A stretch of DNA of 45,014 bases, taken from positions 1 to 45,014 of IMG/VR virus record IMGVR_UViG_3300010399_000014, one strand, 5' to 3'. Position 1 is the stretch's first letter, and the number at the start of each line of letters is the position of its first letter. Position numbers and translations under genes: made by a program. The notes beneath the pieces were generated by a model. The model searched no databases. It was not told where the DNA came from and saw only the letters and a list, made by a program, of their open reading frames with translations. Origin of the DNA: a virus. This document shows positions 11,951 to 28,625 of the stretch, piece after piece.

Positions 11951-12049
11951 ATGAAAAATTGGACTTTTGGGCAAATCCTGAACTTGCTGGGCTGCGCCGC
12001 ACTTGGCTGGTGCATTGCGGACATCATCCGCTTTCTGTTCAAGAAATGA
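11951..12049 (+). CDS. 32-residue single-span membrane peptide
   Basis: Starts at ATG 11951 behind a GGGACGAAAGC leader and ends in an ATGA overlap with the methyltransferase gene. The peptide (MKNWTFGQILNLLGCAAL, then GWCIADIIRFLFKK) has one hydrophobic helix flanked by basic residues. Coupling to the next gene on both sequence and spacing grounds makes it likely to be translated. Function unknown. Confidence 0.5.
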   Translation: MKNWTFGQILNLLGCAALGWCIADIIRFLFKK

Positions 12050-12795
12050 GCCACCTATTACTGCAGGGCGACTGTTTGGATCTGATGCAGTTGCTGCCCG
12101 ATGCGAGCGTCGACATGATTCTGTGCGATTTGCCGTATGGAACCACGCAAAACAAATGGGATAGCGTGATACCACTAGCCCAACTTTGGGCCGAATACTG
12201 GCGCGTCGCCAAATCGGCGGCGGCCGTCGTTCTGACTGCGCAAACTCCCTTTGACAAAGTCCTCGGGGTGTCGTGCCTCGAGCGCCTACGGTACGAGTGG
12301 ATTTGGGAGAAGACGGCAGCGACCGGTTTCTTAAATGCTAAAAAATCGCCGCTCAAGGCGCACGAAAACGTGCTGGTTTTTTACCGCCAGCCGCCGACTT
12401 ATAACCCCCAAATGACCTCGGGGCACACAATCAAGCGTGTTCGGGCTTCCTATGCCAATCATGGAGACAGCTACGGAAAAACAGCTTCCGTTCGGCCGCC
12501 TTACGAATCCACCGCAAGGCATCCGCGCAGCGTCCAGAAAATCGCAAAGGACAACAGGATGCTGAAACAACACCCCACACAGAAGCCCGTCGCCCTGATG
12601 GAATACCTGATCCGCACCTATACGAACCCCGGCGACGTGGTGCTAGACAATTGCATGGGCAGCGGCAGCACGGGCGTGGCGTGTGCACAAACCGATCGAT
12701 TCTTTGTCGGAATGGAACGCGACGAAAGTTATTTTAAAATAGCTAAAGAACGAGTAGAGTCTGCTTATAAATTAGCTAAGCAGAACGACAAATGA
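12046..12795 (+). CDS. DNA (N4-cytosine or N6-adenine) methyltransferase
   Basis: 249 residues from the ATG at 12046, which overlaps the preceding stop; an in-frame start at 11959 lies inside the micro-gene. It has the beta-class order: LLQGDCLDLM and the catalytic DLPYG (28-32) near the start, HPTQKPVALMEYLI about residue 185, and the AdoMet-binding DNCMGSGSTGVA near residue 201. DLPYG in place of DPPY is a common variant. Methylation may protect phage DNA from host restriction or mark it for replication. ATGA overlap with the polymerase gene downstream. Confidence 0.9.
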   Translation: MSHLLLQGDCLDLMQLLPDASVDMILCDLPYGTTQNKWDSVIPLAQLWAEYWRVAKSAAAVVLTAQTPFDKVLGVSCLERLRYEWIWEKTAATGFLNAKKSPLKAHENVLVFYRQPPTYNPQMTSGHTIKRVRASYANHGDSYGKTASVRPPYESTARHPRSVQKIAKDNRMLKQHPTQKPVALMEYLIRTYTNPGDVVLDNCMGSGSTGVACAQTDRFFVGMERDESYFKIAKERVESAYKLAKQNDK

Positions 12796-14771
12796 ACGAA
12801 CTCGATAACGCCGTCGCGCTGGACTTCGAAACGGCCAGCAAGTGCGACTTACCCGAGACCGGCCTGGGCCGCTATCTGGTCGACCCGACCACGCGTCCGA
12901 CGTGCCTCACGTTTCGGCTACCGGGCATGGCCGTCACGGATTTGTGGGAATTCGGCAAGCCCTTTCCGTCGCAGATCATGCGAGCTATCGAGCGCGGCGC
13001 GCATTTCTGGGCGCACAACGCGCCTTTCGACTTTCATATCTGGAATGAAGTGCTGTCGGCTTTTGTGCCAGATCTGCCGCGTGTGCGCATCGAGCAGGTG
13101 CGTTGCAGCGCGGCGCGGGCGCGCTACAACGGCCTGCCCGGGTCGCTGGAAGGCGCCTGCGACGCGTTGGGCCTGCCGATCCGCAAGGATACCGAAGGCA
13201 AGCGCGTAATGCTTCAGCTGGCCGCGCACCCCGAATGGACGCCCCAGACCCATCCGCAGGAATACGCGCGCAAGTACAGCTACGCGATCACAGACACCGA
13301 TGCCATGATCGGGCTGATCGGCGCGACCGTGCCGCTGCCGCCGCGTGAACAAGCGTTCTTCGAGATGGACATGCGCATCAACGCGCGCGGGTTCGGCGTG
13401 GATGTCGAGGTGGCGCGGGCCATGGAGGAACTGAAAACGCTCGCGCAGGCGCAGCTCGATTATCAGATGACGGTACTGACTCGCGGCGGCGTCTTGGCCG
13501 TGACTGAGGTGGCCAAGATCAAGGAATTCGCTGGCAATTTCGATCAGGAACTGGATGACGCGAGCCGCGAAACGCTCAAAGGCATGACGGCTCGCGAGGA
13601 TTTGCCTGACGATTTGCGCCAAGTGTTGCTACTGCGCCTGGATGCTTCGCGCGCGCCGAAGAAATCGGCGGCCATCCTGCGCGCGCACGTAGGCGGCCGC
13701 CTGCAGCACAGCACGGTCTACCACGGCGCGCTGTCGGGCCGTTCGACCGCCCGCGGCGCGGGCGGCGCGCAAACGCTCAATTACGCGCGCCCCCGGCGCG
13801 AGATGGACGACGCCGAGTGCGCCGCCATGATCGCGGCCATCAAGCGCAAAGATGTCGAGTTTTTGTCCTCGCCTGAGCGCGGGCCGCTTCTGGCCGCGCT
13901 GGCCGACGCGCAGCGCTCGCTACACCGCGCGACGTGGCCGGGCCACGTGCTAGTCGACGCAGACTTGTCAGGCATTGAAGCGCGCATAGCGCCCTGGCTG
14001 GCCGATGACGAAGAGAAACTCACCGATTTCGAGAACGGCATCGACTCGTACAAGAAGTCGGCCATGACGATTTATCCTGGCGTCGAGTACGAGCACGTCA
14101 CCAAGGCGCAGCGCCAGATCGGCAAGGTCGCAGATTTGGCACTCGGTTTCGGGGGCGGCGACGGCGCGTTTACCAGCATGGCGGCCAATTACGGCGTGCA
14201 CTTGCTGCCCGAGCAAGTCTCGGAGATCGTGTTTAACTGGCGCGCAGGCCGCCCTGCATTCGAGCGCTGGTGGAGCGCGCTGGAATACGCCGTACTCATC
14301 GCGCTGGATCCGATGCAGCACGGCCGTCCTGTCGACGTGCCGATCGGGCGCGGCCACTGCGCCAAGGCGTCATTCGTCAAGGAAGGCCCGGCGCTGCGCA
14401 TGGTGCTGCCTTCCGGGCGCGCCATCAGCTACCACAACGCACGTTTGCATCTCGAGCCGGGCGCGAGCGTACCGACGGCGGTCTACGATAAGCCCGAGGG
14501 ATACGTCGAGACGCTGGATCGCAAGATACTGTCCAACAACATGACCCAGGGCCTGGCGCGCGATCACTTCTGGGAGATCATGCTGGACGTGGACAGGGTC
14601 GAGGCGATCGTGCATCACATCTACGACCAGGTCGTGCTGGAAGTGCCGGCCGAGCGCGCCGAGTTGCGCCTGCAACAACTCATCGAACGCATGCGCATCG
14701 TACCGCGGTGGGCGCCAGGGCTGCCGCTGGACGCGGCGGGCTACACCGCACCGATTTGGAGGAAAGACTGA
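12792..14771 (+). CDS. Family A DNA polymerase with 3'-5' exonuclease
   Basis: 659 residues. The exonuclease domain shows LDFETAS (9-15), HNAPFD and YAITDTDA. The polymerase domain shows motif A DADLSGIEARIAPW (about 388), motif B KVADLALGFGGGDGAF (about 443) and motif C YDQVVLEV (about 610). In motif C the usual His-Asp-Glu is Tyr-Asp-Gln; the metal-binding Asp is kept. It is the replicative polymerase of the phage, in the rightward arm from copy A with primase-helicase, SF2 helicase and methylase. It is coupled by ATGA to the methylase and by TGATG to the zinc-ribbon gene. Confidence 0.95.
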   Translation: MNELDNAVALDFETASKCDLPETGLGRYLVDPTTRPTCLTFRLPGMAVTDLWEFGKPFPSQIMRAIERGAHFWAHNAPFDFHIWNEVLSAFVPDLPRVRIEQVRCSAARARYNGLPGSLEGACDALGLPIRKDTEGKRVMLQLAAHPEWTPQTHPQEYARKYSYAITDTDAMIGLIGATVPLPPREQAFFEMDMRINARGFGVDVEVARAMEELKTLAQAQLDYQMTVLTRGGVLAVTEVAKIKEFAGNFDQELDDASRETLKGMTAREDLPDDLRQVLLLRLDASRAPKKSAAILRAHVGGRLQHSTVYHGALSGRSTARGAGGAQTLNYARPRREMDDAECAAMIAAIKRKDVEFLSSPERGPLLAALADAQRSLHRATWPGHVLVDADLSGIEARIAPWLADDEEKLTDFENGIDSYKKSAMTIYPGVEYEHVTKAQRQIGKVADLALGFGGGDGAFTSMAANYGVHLLPEQVSEIVFNWRAGRPAFERWWSALEYAVLIALDPMQHGRPVDVPIGRGHCAKASFVKEGPALRMVLPSGRAISYHNARLHLEPGASVPTAVYDKPEGYVETLDRKILSNNMTQGLARDHFWEIMLDVDRVEAIVHHIYDQVVLEVPAERAELRLQQLIERMRIVPRWAPGLPLDAAGYTAPIWRKD

Positions 14772-22804: not shown

Positions 22805-24244
22805 TTAGCCCTGGACGCGGATCTTGCTCACCAGGCCCGTCAGGCGGTTCTGGGTCTGGTCTTTCATCGCGCCGTCGTTGGCCATGGTGGCCACATCGCG
22901 CGACACGGCGCCGCGGCCGGCCGCATGGGCGCGGCTGTAGCCGTACCAGGCCGCTTTCTCGCCTCCGCGCGGGATCTCGCCATCGGGCACGCCCGACTGA
23001 ATCAGCGCGGCGCGATACACGTCCGCAGCGCTGTCCATGGCCAGATCGGGCCCCAGGACGTAGCGTACGTCTTCCTTGGCGCGCGACAGCGCTTCGACTC
23101 GGGCGCGCTCACGCTTGAGCGCATCAGCCACGGCGGTATTGACAATACGCACGGTACGCGCGTCCATGGCGCCGATGACCTGCGCGGGCTGCTCGTTGGC
23201 GCCGCGGGCCGGCGTGCCGCCGTTGGGCGCGGTCGGCATCGGGGGCTTCACGCCGCCGTTCTCGCCGCCCAACTCCTGCATTTCGGTGTCTTGCGCGCCC
23301 TTGACGGCAGGCTCGAGTTCCATGTCGCGGGCGCGGTCGGCGCCCGACGCCTCGCGGGCTTCGCGTTCCATGCGCGCTTCGTCGGTCTCGGACTCGGCGT
23401 CGCGGGCGCGGTCGTCGGCATCCGGTTCGTCGCCTTCCTGCGGCTGCATGCCCATCGGCTCGTTGTCCTCGCCTTCGCCGGCCGGCGCGTTGACGCCACC
23501 CGAGATCTTGGCATGAATGTCCTGCAGCACGACGCCGATTTGCTTGAGCGCCTGGCCGATCATGGCCATGTTGGCCTGCTCGTTCTGTTCGCCGGCAGGG
23601 CTACCCGGCGCGGGCCGGGCTTCGGGCGCCTTCGCGCCGGGTTGTTCGAGAGGCATAGCTTGCGCTCCTTGCGTGGGTGAGTCGGAGTTTCGCGGCGCTT
23701 GCAAGGCCGCATCGGCAACGTGCGCGCCGGTTGCGCGCCCGTCGTCAACCAAAGCGACGTGATTACCTTGAACATTGGTCATCACGCCATCGTATTTTTT
23801 GCCGCCGGCCTCGCCAGGTCGCATGACGGGCTTGTAGCGGTACGAGCAGGATAGATCGCTCAACGCGTCGGACTCGATGAGGTCGATTGCCTCGCCGTCC
23901 CATACCAGCAGATCGCCGCGCAGCCGTTTACCGTCGAATTCGACGTTGTGCACCGAGCCGCCGATGTACTCCTTGCGCGGTTCGTCGGCGGTCTGCGCGA
24001 TGTGCTTTATCATCAGCGGCAACCCTTCAAACGATGACGCGCCGGCGCCCAGCGCCTCGGGATCGCGGTACAGCTCGTACACCTGTTCGGGCCGCAGACC
24101 TAGCTTGTCGGCGTCCGGGATTTCCCGACCATAATACGGGTTTACCTCGGCCACGCTCAGAATGCAGTTCTTGACGCGCATGCGGCCATCTGCGTCGCGG
24201 GTGCGCGCGGTCTGGCGATCAAACGCAAAAAAGGCTTTCGGCAT
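22805..24244 (-). CDS. Prohead protease with scaffold domain (DUF2213)
   Basis: 479 residues. The first 190 or so match DUF2213 prohead proteases: VAEVNPYYGREIP, SSFEGLPLMIKHI, LSDLSCSYRYKPVM and the NVQGNHVALVDDGRATGAHV catalytic region (His and later Ser/Asp set). The remainder is long, Gln/Glu/Ala-rich and strongly charged, as expected of an internal scaffold, and ends in a short conserved tail. Protease-scaffold fusions process themselves out of the prohead. No clear ribosome site is visible at the ATG. It is the last head gene before the inserted rightward cassette. Confidence 0.85.
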   Translation of the reverse strand: MPKAFFAFDRQTARTRDADGRMRVKNCILSVAEVNPYYGREIPDADKLGLRPEQVYELYRDPEALGAGASSFEGLPLMIKHIAQTADEPRKEYIGGSVHNVEFDGKRLRGDLLVWDGEAIDLIESDALSDLSCSYRYKPVMRPGEAGGKKYDGVMTNVQGNHVALVDDGRATGAHVADAALQAPRNSDSPTQGAQAMPLEQPGAKAPEARPAPGSPAGEQNEQANMAMIGQALKQIGVVLQDIHAKISGGVNAPAGEGEDNEPMGMQPQEGDEPDADDRARDAESETDEARMEREAREASGADRARDMELEPAVKGAQDTEMQELGGENGGVKPPMPTAPNGGTPARGANEQPAQVIGAMDARTVRIVNTAVADALKRERARVEALSRAKEDVRYVLGPDLAMDSAADVYRAALIQSGVPDGEIPRGGEKAAWYGYSRAHAAGRGAVSRDVATMANDGAMKDQTQNRLTGLVSKIRVQG

Positions 24245-24384
24245 GGCGGCATGGGGTAAGTTTGTGCAATAGTAACGCGCCGGTTAGGAATACGCAATCA
24301 AGCGCGAAATGCCATAGCGAAATTCAATGGAGAGTCTGGCCGCGTATGTTAAGATATGGGTTACATACACGTAAGGAGTCTCAC

Positions 24385-24966
24385 ATGCTCACAATCCCCG
24401 CCCACAAACTCAAAGCCGCGCTGACGCACTCTGCCGTTCGTGACATTCGCTACTACCTCAATGGCGTTTACCTGGAGGCTGCCGAGTCCGGCGATTTGCA
24501 CATCATCGCAACGGATGGACACCGTATGCTCTGCGGGCGCATTCCGGACGGCGCGGCGAATGCCCCGGATTTCAAGTCGGTCGTTATCCCGAGCGAAACT
24601 GTCAAACTGGCCGTGAGAGGCAAAGGCGATGTGGAATTGGCTTGGGCTGCCGGCGTTTGGCGTTTAGGTACGTATCTGTTCAAACCGGTCGACGGTGTGT
24701 TTCCGCCCTGGCGCCGCGTCATTCCGACGCTCGATCCGGCCGCGCCGCCGACGGATTGGGACTATACGTACCTGGATTCCGCACAAACAGCGCTCCGGCT
24801 ATGGACGGGACACAAAACAATGACTGTCCGCAAGCTGGATTGCGAAGGCAATTCCTGCGTCGTGGCTTGCTTCGATCCCGACGTGTTTTGCATCGTTATG
24901 GCGTTGTGGAATCACGGCGCGACAGTTATCGAACCGCCGTTCACACCTGCGGCGGCTCGCCAATGA
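24385..24966 (+). CDS. Half-size sliding clamp (DnaN-like)
   Basis: 193 residues from ATG 24385 (TAAGGAG ribosome site). The sequence matches the middle and third domains of bacterial beta clamp: SAVRDIRYYLNGVYLEAAESGD and HIIATDGHRMLCGRI align with the start of domain II, VVIPSETVKLAVRGKGDVEL follows, and TYLFKPVDGVFPPWRRVIPT matches the start of domain III. The first domain and most of the third are absent. It could form a different ring, load onto the phage polymerase, or act as a decoy for host clamp partners. It lies on the strand opposite to all surrounding head genes, with a coupled methyltransferase. Confidence 0.8.
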   Translation: MLTIPAHKLKAALTHSAVRDIRYYLNGVYLEAAESGDLHIIATDGHRMLCGRIPDGAANAPDFKSVVIPSETVKLAVRGKGDVELAWAAGVWRLGTYLFKPVDGVFPPWRRVIPTLDPAAPPTDWDYTYLDSAQTALRLWTGHKTMTVRKLDCEGNSCVVACFDPDVFCIVMALWNHGATVIEPPFTPAAARQ

Positions 24967-26009
24967 GCGCGTATTACAACGAAATCGAACCCTTTGCAGC
25001 CCAATGGCTGCGCAACCTGATCGCGGCGGGGCACATCGCCCCAGGCGACGTGGATGAACGGAGCATAGAAGATGTACGACCCGACGACTTGCGCGGATAC
25101 GCCCAATGCCATTTCTTTGCCGGCGTCGGCGTCTGGTCCTACGCCCTGCGACTCGCCGGCTGGCCCGATGACCGGCCTGTTTGGACGGGTTCCTGTCCGT
25201 GCCAACCTTTCAGCGCGGCAGGTAAAGGCGCTGGGTTTGCTGACGAGCGGCACCTTTGGCCGCACTTCCATTGGCTCATCCAGGAGTGCCGCCCTCCAGT
25301 CATCTTTGGAGAGCAGGTTGAAGCAGCGATTAAACACGGCTGGCTCGACCTTGTTCTAGATGACCTGGAAGGAAGTGGCTACGCCTTCGGGGCGACAGGT
25401 ATCCCTGCTGCGGGCGTCGGTGCACCGCATCCCCGCCACCGACTTTACTTCGTGGCCGACAGCAGCAGCCAGGGATTACAGGAGCGAATCGGCGACGGAC
25501 GAATTCAACAAGAAACGTTGGGAGCATCCCCGCGGCAAACCGCTGTCGGCAGTTGCCGCCTTAGCCGGCTGGCCGACCTGCACGGCGACGGACGCTCACA
25601 GGGGCGCGAAGGCCGCGCGCCCTTGGGACACCGGCCGACCGCTCAACCAGATTGTGGCTCTGGCCGCGTGGAATACACCAGCAGCCTCGGATGGAATGGG
25701 CGGAAAGCGCCCGCATCCGGACACATCGATGACGGGGCAACACCCCGACGGGCGCAAGATAAACATGGGGTTGCCCTCTCAGGTGCACCTGGGCTTCATC
25801 AACACGGAGCCGGCCCGATTAACGGCTTCTGGCGAGATGCTGATTGGCTCTTCTGCCGGGATGGAAAGTGGCGGCCAGTTGAACCCGGCACATTCCCGCT
25901 GGCTCATGGGGCTCCCGCCCGAGTGGGACGCCTGCGCGCCTACGGCAATGCCATCAACGCGCAAACTGCGCGCGTCTTCATCGAAACGGTAATGGCAGGC
26001 ACGCCTTGA
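24963..26009 (+). CDS. C5-cytosine DNA methyltransferase
   Basis: 348 residues, coupled to the clamp gene by ATGA. Motif [18 protein letters not shown] (51-67), motif [11 protein letters not shown] with the catalytic Cys at about residue 80, a motif VI position with GEQV instead of ENV, motif [15 protein letters not shown], and a C-terminal motif [10 protein letters not shown]. The region from residue 160 on is rich in Arg, Gly and Asp and is also open in a second frame (25360-25992). It probably modifies phage DNA against host restriction. The 3' end overlaps the convergent Mu F-like gene by 32 bp. Confidence 0.88.
25360..25992 (+). CDS. Overlapping second-frame protein (alternative methyltransferase C-terminal frame)
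   Basis: 210 residues read in the +1 frame inside the methyltransferase gene. Unlike ordinary shadow frames it carries segments known from independently annotated phage proteins: repeated WPT(A/C) motifs, a [18 protein letters not shown] stretch, and [19 protein letters not shown] followed by [10 protein letters not shown], which resembles the end of other cytosine methyltransferases. The main frame in the same DNA encodes [16 protein letters not shown] and a motif X. Both frames therefore look conserved. The ATG at 25360 has no clear ribosome site, so expression may need coupling or frameshifting. Recognition is from memory. Confidence 0.5.
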
Positions 26010-26934
26010 GCCTGAACGCGCCCGGGAAACCGGGTACCGGTTCCAGCTTGTCCGGATCGAACCCGGTCGGCATGCGGCCCAAACCGGGAATGATCGAACG
26101 CCCCGTGCAGCGGCAGTTGATCGCCTCGCCGGGCAGCACGTACCCAAACCCATCGCCAAAGTCGATACCGACGTTGATGTCGTAATACCAATTTTCGCGG
26201 CTGGCGCGCAGATGCTCGGGCCGCGGCTCTTTGCCCGCGCTGGAATGTTTCCAGAGCGCCCAGCGGATGCCCAACTCACGTTGACGCGCGCTGTTTAGCT
26301 GCGCCGTCGCCTTGTTGGATTGGTCGCGCGCAATCAGCGCGGCGCGGCGCGTGCATACGCCTCCGCGTTTCTTGATCTGTTCGGCCATGGGCGCCAAGTC
26401 GCGCCCCGCCAGGAAATTGCGGGTGACAATGCCCTGAATGTCTTTGTGGTAGTCCTGCTGGATGGATCGAATCAGCGCGACGTTTTCGGGGATCTTGGCC
26501 CGCAGCACGAGTTTCTGCGCTGGCGTGACCTGCATCTTGATGTCGAACCCGGCGCGCCCCAGCTTGCTCTGCCAGGCCGACGAGTTGGATTTGTACCACT
26601 TCTGCACGACCCCGATGGCGAGATTGCGGGCGAGTTCGTCAAACTTGTTCGACCAGTAGTCCTCCAGGCGCGCGAGTTCGCCTTGCAGCCGTTCAGCGTC
26701 CTGAAATGGCGAAGCGTCCTCGGCGCGCGCTGCACGATCGGGCAGGCGCCCCGCGGCCACGTTAGCTTCGACGGCTTGGGCAAACCGCCGTGCCAGCCAA
26801 TGCTGATACGAGGTCGTCATGTTGGCCACCGCTTTAGCGATCGCCGAGCGATACCATGCTTCGATCTGCGCGTTTGGCCCGACAGCACCTAGCGTGATCG
26901 TGCGCTTGCCCGGCGCGCGCAGTTCTGCAGTCAC
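25978..26934 (-). CDS. Mu F-like minor head protein
   Basis: 318 residues. The C-terminal half matches the Mu gpF-like head morphogenesis domain: [28 protein letters not shown], then [18 protein letters not shown] and [18 protein letters not shown], with paired Cys near the end. The N-terminal half is helical. Such proteins are ejected or lie near the portal and help start head assembly. ATGA coupling with portal. Its 3' end overlaps the oppositely oriented methyltransferase gene by 32 bp, so the inserted cassette ends inside it. Confidence 0.88.
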
Positions 26935-28625
26935 ACCAAGCCCTCGACCGTTTCGTCAAGTTGACCCGGTTGCAGCACGGGGTCGGCCGGCTCGACGCGC
27001 GCCGGGCGCAACTCTGCGGGCGTGCCTGCGGCGTTTTCGGTCGGCGCCTGCGGTTCGGCTTGCGCGTTCATGCCCTCGCTAGGCGCGCCACCCGCGCCGG
27101 TTGTCTCTTGCGCCATATCGGTCAATTTGTCCGTGATGCCGCCGATGTCGTCGTCCGGCGTGGCTTCTAGCGTGTCAGCCACGAGCGTGCCCGCGTACAT
27201 GCTGCCCGAGTCATTGTTCAGGCGCGCCGAGACTTGTTCGGCTGTCACGATGCCCGATTCGATGTTCAACGAGTCGGTTTGTGCGATCTTGAACTGACGG
27301 TCGGAATCTTCCAGCGCGGTCAGCTCGTACAGTTCTTCCCAGTCCCAATAGATCGACTCGTCAATCTCGCCAAAAAGCGACAGCTGGATGAGGCGCAACA
27401 CCGTGTCCATGACCGGCGTCACCGTGCGCGACTGATACCCGGCGACGTAGTCGTACCACACGCGGATCTCGCCTTCGCTCGATGCGTTCAGGCCGGACGG
27501 CGTGATGCCGGTCAGCTTGACCAGCGGGATATGCGACACGGCCGACTGCTGTTCCTGCGCCTGGGCTTGTAGATCGGAAAGGCCCGACAGCGGCGTATTG
27601 ACCTGGAAGAATTCTTCGGTTGCTTTATCCAGGAAGGCGATATTGCGATTGTCGCGCATCCGGTTGAAAAGCTCTGCCCGATTGTTGAGCGCCTGGGACG
27701 CGCCAGGCGCCAAAAATTGCGCGAGGTCAGTCAGGACGCCGGTGATCGAAAATTGCTTGATCGTGTCGCTGACCGACTGCTGCGTGCGCAACCAGTTGTC
27801 GATGTACGGCATCGCCAACTGCGACATGCTGATGCCGCGAAACGAGTACGTCGGCTTGAGCATGTCCGGCACGGGCCGGCTGATCATGGTCTGTAGTCGC
27901 GTGGCATGCACTTCAGTGGCCAGCATCCACCAGGTGGACGGCTTGTAGAAATTGGGCGCCGACGGGTCGATCGAGTTGTAATTGTTCGGCGTGACCCAGT
28001 AAGGCTCGACCACGCGCACGGCCTCGAAAGACCCTTTGCGCACGGTACCGGGTCGTAGGACGAGCGGCGTGTCGCGCTGGTTTTCATCGCCGCGCAGCTT
28101 AAAAAACGCGTGGCCGCCCCCGAAAGCCTGGTCATGCACCACGAGTTGGCGCACGGCCGACTTCATATCAAGGCGCTTGATCTCGGATTCGATCTCTTCC
28201 AGCTTGGCCGGATCCGCCGTGTCGGCTGCCTTGACTTTGCCCCACTTGCGCACGCACTCTTCGGCCAGCGTCTCGTGCATGGTGCGGTATTCGGCCAACT
28301 GCGTAAGGAGCGCCAGCGTGGGAAAGCCCGGAAATCCGGTTTGCGCGATGTACGTCAGCGCGTTCATGGACATGCCGTTAAAGTCCATGGCGTGTTCGGC
28401 TGCGGCACGCTCGCGCGTCGTGTAGTTTTCGGGCTTGGTCTCGTACGCGGTCGCGCGGGCATAAGACGGCGAAACCGGCGCCGCCGTGGAGGACAGCGCG
28501 AGCTGCATGGCAGCGGCGCGAAGTTGCACTTCGGTCAGCGGCGTCTCGCGTTGTGTCGCGGGCGTTGCGGGCGTTGCGGACGGGGGCGCGCCGGCGCGCT
28601 GGGTGCGTAGACTGCGTCGGGTCAT
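26931..28625 (-). CDS. Portal protein (DUF1073)
   Basis: 564 residues. DUF1073 portals form the dodecameric DNA gate. Visible: MDFNGMSMNALTYIAQTGFPGF, a block FGGGHAFFKLRG, WVTPNNYNSIDPSAPNFYKP, RLQTMISRPVPDMLKPTYSFRGIS, and LLDLSLFGEI-like C-terminal helices. The last 90 residues are acidic and Pro/Ala-rich. It is followed after 1 nt by terminase upstream in the operon and coupled to the Mu F-like gene. In databases related proteins are sometimes labelled Acb1-like; nothing here shows nuclease or phosphodiesterase activity. Confidence 0.88.
   Translation of the reverse strand: MTRRSLRTQRAGAPPSATPATPATQRETPLTEVQLRAAAMQLALSSTAAPVSPSYARATAYETKPENYTTRERAAAEHAMDFNGMSMNALTYIAQTGFPGFPTLALLTQLAEYRTMHETLAEECVRKWGKVKAADTADPAKLEEIESEIKRLDMKSAVRQLVVHDQAFGGGHAFFKLRGDENQRDTPLVLRPGTVRKGSFEAVRVVEPYWVTPNNYNSIDPSAPNFYKPSTWWMLATEVHATRLQTMISRPVPDMLKPTYSFRGISMSQLAMPYIDNWLRTQQSVSDTIKQFSITGVLTDLAQFLAPGASQALNNRAELFNRMRDNRNIAFLDKATEEFFQVNTPLSGLSDLQAQAQEQQSAVSHIPLVKLTGITPSGLNASSEGEIRVWYDYVAGYQSRTVTPVMDTVLRLIQLSLFGEIDESIYWDWEELYELTALEDSDRQFKIAQTDSLNIESGIVTAEQVSARLNNDSGSMYAGTLVADTLEATPDDDIGGITDKLTDMAQETTGAGGAPSEGMNAQAEPQAPTENAAGTPAELRPARVEPADPVLQPGQLDETVEGLV

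Follow-up and report, generated by a model that had tools for sequence, protein, structure and literature searches.

The clamp subunits of T4 gp45 and PCNA are shorter members of the clamp fold family, with two complete domains each, and form a trimeric ring, whereas DnaN, the bacterial beta clamp, has three clamp domains per subunit and a head-to-tail dimer interface. Phages also encode full-length clamps (phrog_947; Psul1, Pyei1, and Sansa) that have domain I and the whole of domain III. For E. coli beta, a beta clamp review (PMC11139829) gives 18 pocket residues, assigns I78, F106, I272, L273, and E298-E304 to the dimer interface, and names Q149 as a DNA contact. The same review describes a monomeric beta mutant (I272A/L273A), which is engineered and retains all three domains, and Twort Gp168, a phage protein that acts on the host clamp system by binding the clamp's DNA channel. 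Herpes UL42 and UL44 are viral clamp relatives that, according to PMC9690074, are not closed rings and are highly positive and DNA-binding.

Here we describe a phage protein, which we call the half-clamp, that has in common with E. coli beta its domain II, the fold of the C-terminal half of domain III, and the pocket residues, but is without domain I, the first half of domain III, and the dimer interface. Its homology to the full-length phage clamps covers domain II and the end of domain III. In its predicted state, a pocket without a ring, the half-clamp resembles the monomeric beta mutant. If the half-clamp acts on the clamp system of its host, Gp168 would be an analogue among phage proteins, although Gp168 occupies the DNA channel and the half-clamp copies the clamp's own pocket. 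Like UL42 and UL44, it is predicted not to be a closed ring; unlike them, it has a net charge of about zero.

The half-clamp gene lies in a 45,014-nucleotide IMG/VR virus record (IMGVR_UViG_3300010399_000014), the whole of which we refer to as the window. The 193-residue ORF singled out in the original prediction proved to be a real gene, preceded by a likely ribosome-binding site (Table 1). It was also correctly described as running against the head operon next to a methyltransferase; the two genes in fact overlap. The head operon is on the minus strand and comprises the terminase large subunit, portal, head morphogenesis, maturation protease, and major head protein genes, with the methyltransferase and half-clamp genes forming an antiparallel island between head morphogenesis and protease. 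Consensus searches found no sigma-70-type promoter or terminator beside the half-clamp gene (0.7 and 2.3 expected by chance). The phage also encodes a primase/helicase and a helicase.

Table 1. Coordinates of the half-clamp gene, its parts, and other genes of interest in the window.
Feature	Position	Strand	Evidence or remark
Likely ribosome-binding site AAGGAG	24373..24378	+	Read from sequence; six bases upstream of half-clamp ATG
Half-clamp gene, 193 aa + stop	24385..24966	+	ORF; PF02767, PHROG_3007, TIGR00663, and PDB matches; AlphaFold
Complete clamp domain II, half-clamp residues 1-115	24385..24729	+	hhalign, residue mapping
Linker and C-terminal half of domain III, residues 116-176	24730..24912	+	
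C-terminal tail past the DnaN end, residues 177-193	24913..24963	+	
DNA cytosine methyltransferase	24963..26009	+	PHROG_363 E 5.7e-90; overlaps half-clamp stop
Head maturation protease, left flank	22805..24244	-	PHROG_2229 E 1.1e-107
Head morphogenesis protein, right flank	25978..26934	-	PHROG_324 E 9.6e-65
Portal protein	26931..28625	-	PHROG_15528 E 4.8e-129
Family-A DNA polymerase	12792..14771	+	phrog_17 E 2.1e-70; PF00476 E 2.1e-9, below cut-off
Second DNA methyltransferase	11959..12795		phrog_67 E 1.9e-78; directly before polymerase gene

Relatives in IMG/VR were identified with DNA patterns for DIRYYLN, YYLNGIC, DG[RK]FPDW, and N-terminal peptides, using the best 80 of 285 and the best 80 of 119 matches; conservation in relatives found this way is partly built in, because the patterns include some pocket residues. 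An ORF was classified as "half" when its profile match started within the first 130 residues. By this measure, the 249 ORFs kept comprised 231 half-clamps and 18 full clamps. At 70% identity the half-clamps collapsed to 95, and removal of L172, truncated at the end of its contig, and L158, apparently a piece of a full clamp, left 93 representatives; the full-clamp control set was reduced from 18 to 13 (L057, L076, L169, L177, and L206 dropped). Searches by tblastn returned 156 phage records at E<=0.01 with the window protein, some of them full-length clamps, and 243 records at E<=1e-3 with a Kagunavirus member, and related short viral proteins are present in BFVD. The family is widespread among phages. 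A genome scan for prophage copies returned full-length DnaN with domain I in 80 of 80 cases and has little bearing on prophage half-clamps.

The half-clamp consists of all of domain II and the C-terminal half of domain III of the beta clamp. The proposed match to domain II was borne out for the window protein by the Pfam DnaN central domain (PF02767; E 1.1e-6, 29.3 bits against a cut-off of 27), by E. coli beta residues 142-250 in the PDB (E 5.8e-10), and by TIGR00663, whose match was restricted to half-clamp residues 19-115 and, at 32.4 bits, fell below the equivalog cut-off of 137.65. PF02767 matched 79 of the 99 members of alignment A6, and the N-terminal part of the family aligned with domain II at 100% in hhalign (E 3e-38). 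The phage family profile PHROG_3007 covered nearly the whole protein (E 5.7e-32; residues 1-172 on 2-182 of 190). Domain I is missing, as had been claimed: PF00712 had no match in the gene or in the whole window record. The alternative of a clamp in two pieces, with domain I encoded at another locus, was set aside, PF00712 being absent from all 16 half-clamp records examined and present in 3/3 full-clamp control records.

The C-terminal part had been taken for the beginning of domain III; it is instead the end. This assignment was made with separate half-domain profiles built from the 13 full-length phage clamps and E. coli, applied to 94 of the 95 representatives (the one truncated at a contig end was left out). 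All 94 C-terminal parts matched E. coli 313-366, 77 of them at E<0.01, versus a single representative at E<0.01 for E. coli 251-312. In hhalign, the C-terminal part scored 97.9% (E 6e-13) against the end of domain III and 3.1% against its first half. In four relatives (W05, W06, W09, and W13), TIGR00663 matched over 137-258 and then over 314-367 with no match between, the second pieces being weak (E 0.003-0.26), and most tail-less relatives end at or near the DnaN C-terminus, MPMRL. The first profile search had aligned the C-terminal part both to E. coli up to 297 and to 314-366; its main alignment ran through 297, in the first half of the domain, because the clamp domain is an internal pseudo-repeat. 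With domain I and the first half of domain III missing, the protein does not have the three clamp domains per subunit of DnaN, and at one and a half domains it also falls short of the two complete domains of T4 gp45 and PCNA.

Structure prediction gave a clamp fold, in agreement with the original prediction. The AlphaFold model of the window protein, made with the 99-sequence alignment A6 (99 of 104 sequences, with L069, L130, L158, L209, and L229 omitted by choice), had a pLDDT of 92.8 and a pTM of 0.87. By VIA-align, residues 1-176 of this model superimposed on residues 127-366 of E. coli beta (6fvl_D; Z 16.1, rmsd 2.5, 167 aligned), leaving about 73 chain residues of that E. coli segment without a predicted counterpart. 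The model of a tail-less relative of the Klebsiella phage type, L100 (pLDDT 95.1, pTM 0.90), aligned over residues 1-178 with E. coli beta 125-366 (8vat_G; Z 14.2, rmsd 3.1, 165 aligned). In this model, which represents the tail-less Klebsiella/Salmonella type, a strand takes the place of the second inner helix of domain II.

All 18 pocket positions given in the beta clamp review (PMC11139829) fall within retained segments, and the listed interface residues I78, F106, I272, L273, and E298-E304 all fall within lost ones. The segments that form the head-to-tail dimer interface of DnaN are missing from the half-clamp, and a ring of a known type, one of the possibilities raised at the outset, is disfavored by the absence of both interface faces. 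In the window protein, the pocket positions correspond to R22, L25, T43, G45, H46, R47, M48, P107, R111, and V112 in domain II and to D126, Y129, N156, I170, M172, A173, L174, and W175 in domain III.

The pocket is also the best-kept feature of the family at sequence level. Across the 93 representatives, identity to E. coli was 0.77 at pocket positions versus 0.21 elsewhere (p 7e-8), and entropy was 1.06 versus 2.72. The enrichment persisted when columns touched by the search patterns were left out (p 1.7e-7) and in 13 named phages that had been identified by protein similarity rather than by pattern (p 3.5e-6). Because the pocket is already conserved in DnaN, we also compared columns that are at least 90% fixed in 21 bacterial DnaN: half-clamps kept 0.82 of these in the pocket versus 0.45 of the others (p 6e-4), or 0.78 versus 0.33 without the seeded columns (p 7.5e-5). 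Individual residues kept across the family include R152 (93/93), G174 and P242 (92/93 each), L155 (91/93), T172 (89/93), M362 (88/92), and H175 (85/93), and a mean of 13.7 of the 18 pocket residues are identical to E. coli. At the level of sequence, the half-clamp possesses the pocket for clamp-binding motifs that characterizes DnaN. Loss of the DNA contact Q149, retained in 13/93 half-clamps, is a weak argument for a pocket decoy, since full-length phage clamps vary there too (2/14 retain it). A C-terminal tail of more than eight residues is present in 68 of the 93 representatives; it might fold onto the pocket or substitute for the lost half-domain. Many tails carry an aromatic motif, PAWA or FTP-like.

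In a tree of the 93 half-clamps, the 13 phage clamps, and the 21 bacterial DnaN, one change from full to half was needed, compared with a mean of 30.1 in shuffled trees (0/500 as low as one). Support for the half-clamp branch was modest (SH-aLRT 66), and the family is compatible with a single origin. Among 17 close pairs, the 15 usable ones gave dN/dS values of 0.04-0.26, which indicates that the family is under purifying selection.

The genomic settings show that the site in the head operon is exchangeable and that the half-clamp is an accessory gene. Among 16 carriers with annotated surroundings (the window and 15 others), the gene is antiparallel among virion genes in nine, either single or paired (the window, Bcep781, SO-1, NFG_5577, and fFiEco03) or inside a small cassette (KpV2811, AB4P2, PM-CJR, and pIS4-A, the last placed by its similar layout, its neighbors being unlabelled). 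The backward orientation in the head operon recurs in several lytic phage genera. In the other seven carriers the gene lies elsewhere, in places adjoining polymerase, helicase, or methyltransferase genes. Neighbor strand counts from a rough gene caller were not used, the caller being unreliable in GC-rich DNA.

Dhillonvirus has 155 records with a match to the head region, which in 146 spans at least 80% of it, and 16 with a match to the half-clamp gene; in Guernseyvirinae, the corresponding numbers are 484 (128 over at least 80%) and 23, all of these counts including duplicates. An Nmad5 gene takes the half-clamp site in the Dhillonvirus members SECphi18 and Bas85. In Guernseyvirinae, the site is empty in K1ind2, holds a gene for a 179-aa unknown protein in TU03, and holds an N6/N4 methyltransferase in dunkel. 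Six records without the gene at the site, checked whole, had no half-clamp, and the positive control, TheodorHerzl, had one. Xanthomonas phage PhiXhv-18, whose head operon is Bcep781-like, has a methyltransferase alone at the site between head protein and protease; Bcep781 has the half-clamp alone, and the window has both. A methyltransferase common to the Xanthomonas phage and the window was rejected, the two proteins having no similarity by BLAST. As side observations, the Dhillonvirus site lies between scaffold and spanin genes and contains either the half-clamp or Nmad5 (L004/L334/L335/L340), the Bas85 Nmad5 gene being annotated "hypothetical"; the Kagunavirus/Jerseyvirus site (L019/L336/L337/L338) is empty or contains the half-clamp, the 179-aa unknown, or an adenine methyltransferase.

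From this anatomy we infer, at somewhat less than an even chance, that the half-clamp is a ring-less mimic of the pocket, in competition with the host clamp for binding partners. Of the roles suggested in the original prediction, a pocket mimic is the one favored by the predicted clamp fold and the conservation of the pocket; neither outcome named in advance as refuting, an unrelated fold or an unconserved pocket, was observed. The phage would make a piece of beta clamp that is essentially a docking pocket on a minimal scaffold, probably soluble and monomeric, from an accessory (moron-like) gene outside the core replisome. This pocket would bind those proteins of the host that have clamp-binding motifs (clamp loader delta, Pol III alpha, Pol IV, Hda, and MutS/MutL) in competition with the host's loaded clamp, and the outcome may be slower clamp loading or a redirection of replication and repair to the host's or the phage's favor. 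The loader is a plausible first target because, according to PMC11139829, the affinity of delta for a monomeric beta mutant is about 50 times that for the dimer. A broader proposal, possible but more tentative, is that the half-clamps are a widespread and probably once-evolved family of soluble decoys that draw polymerases, repair proteins, or the clamp loader away from host forks.

Several observations weigh against a pocket decoy. The pocket of the window protein is partly altered, with 11/18 residues identical to E. coli and changes mostly in subsite II (N320D, P363A, and R365W). Carriers without a detected family-A or C-family polymerase may need the host's Pol III, so that a strong decoy could be harmful, and in 7/16 records the gene is not within the virion operon. 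Lastly, pocket conservation would fit a docking adaptor as well.

Such an adaptor would hold in its pocket a phage protein with a clamp-binding-like motif and organize phage DNA metabolism, leaving the host untouched. Candidates are the neighboring methyltransferase, a ParB-like protein, or a polymerase, and genes of all three kinds are found beside half-clamps (DNA methyltransferases in the window, L006, L010, and L017). A scan of 64 of the 79 co-directional neighbors found, all from the rough gene caller, included four matches to a DNA polymerase family and three to a ParB-like family, numbers for which there is no baseline. The gene also occurs with very different neighbors and alone, however, and the window phage's own proteins contain four clamp-binding motifs versus 5.8 +/- 2.4 in shuffled sequences, a lack of excess that points to host partners. 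We consider an adaptor unlikely. A QLSLF sequence in the window portal was interpreted as a feature of the portal rather than as a clamp-binding motif; it is conserved in the Bcep781 portal within a 60%-identical stretch.

An unusual processivity factor for a phage polymerase, either a non-ring tether of the UL42 type or an unusual oligomer, is a rather improbable alternative. Family-A DNA polymerases are not known to need a DnaN-type clamp. A family-A polymerase is clear in 6/16 carriers (PF00476, four of them over the cut-off, with clear phrog_17 matches), and in BcepC6B the half-clamp gene directly follows that of its polymerase. Four copies of three half-domains would also give the twelve half-domains of a clamp ring, as a matter of arithmetic only. 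Against this, ten of the 16 carriers have no PF00476 match (one of these, the seventh carrier, has a weak phrog_17 match alone), and none of the 16 has a C-family polymerase; given this mixed content, the half-clamp does not track one kind of replicase. A core role as polymerase helper, as had been suggested, is further disfavored by the presence or absence of the gene among close relatives in Dhillonvirus and Guernseyvirinae with the same head region. The strand that replaces the second inner helix of domain II in the L100 model and position 328, polar in the family but a hydrophobic leucine (L328) in DnaN, also speak against a processivity factor. A net charge near zero (family median 0, window -1) counts against a UL42-like tether, UL42-type clamps being described as highly positive in PMC9690074.

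Alternatively, the half-clamp could serve as a counter-defense or SOS modulator that occupies one host clamp client, such as Pol IV/V, MutS/MutL, or a clamp-using defense nuclease, without shutting down replication. The accessory site that it has in common with DNA methyltransferase and Nmad5 genes, for which anti-restriction functions are plausible, lends this idea some weight, but there was no PADLOC match, in a library that lists defense rather than counter-defense systems, and we regard a modulator as doubtful. Insertion into the host DnaN ring as a heterodimer poison is highly improbable: the two proteins have a common fold, but the half-clamp is without I78/F106 and I272/L273/E298-E304, and hence without both dimerization faces described in PMC11139829. 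That the half-clamp is a decaying fragment without function, as its reduced length relative to DnaN and varied sequence could suggest, is scarcely credible given its uniform boundaries, open reading frames across the family, purifying selection, and a tree compatible with one origin.

In public databases, the clamp-fragment anatomy is hidden and the family is filed under a wrong name. Its members are mostly labelled "DNA polymerase III beta subunit" or, through PHROG_3007, "RusA-like Holliday junction resolvase". A RusA function was rejected: PF02767 was the sole Pfam match of the window protein at E<=10 and the sole Pfam family matched by the 99 family members at E<=0.001, and Bcep781 carries a separate RusA, gp22. 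The Bcep781 relative, gp15, which is 52% identical to the window protein, is annotated "DNA Pol III b subunit fragment". The RusA-like label was seen on clamp fragments in many RefSeq phage records (for example, NC_004333.2 gp15 and NC_013600.1 gp07), and in Salmonella phage PhiSTP2 (OL944023.1, 3868-4350) a half-clamp match stands under a "major head protein" label that is probably an error. The gene family and the DnaN homology label were thus already known; what seems to be new is that the pocket, at sequence level, is kept where the defining features of a sliding clamp are absent. A literature search that took in a minority of subscription papers turned up nothing that treats ring-less phage clamps as a functional class.

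Bacteria use the clamp pocket as the hub for deciding among replication, bypass, and repair, and the pocket is also a target for antibiotics. The proposed role of the half-clamp is directly testable, as phages of E. coli K-12 that carry it exist (TheodorHerzl), along with close relatives that are without the gene. If the reading as a pocket mimic is correct, a natural clamp reduced to its pocket would serve as a ready-made competitor of the clamp hub. It would also reveal a new route by which phages seize or spare host replication, with host takeover achieved by mimicking the clamp and not by binding it.
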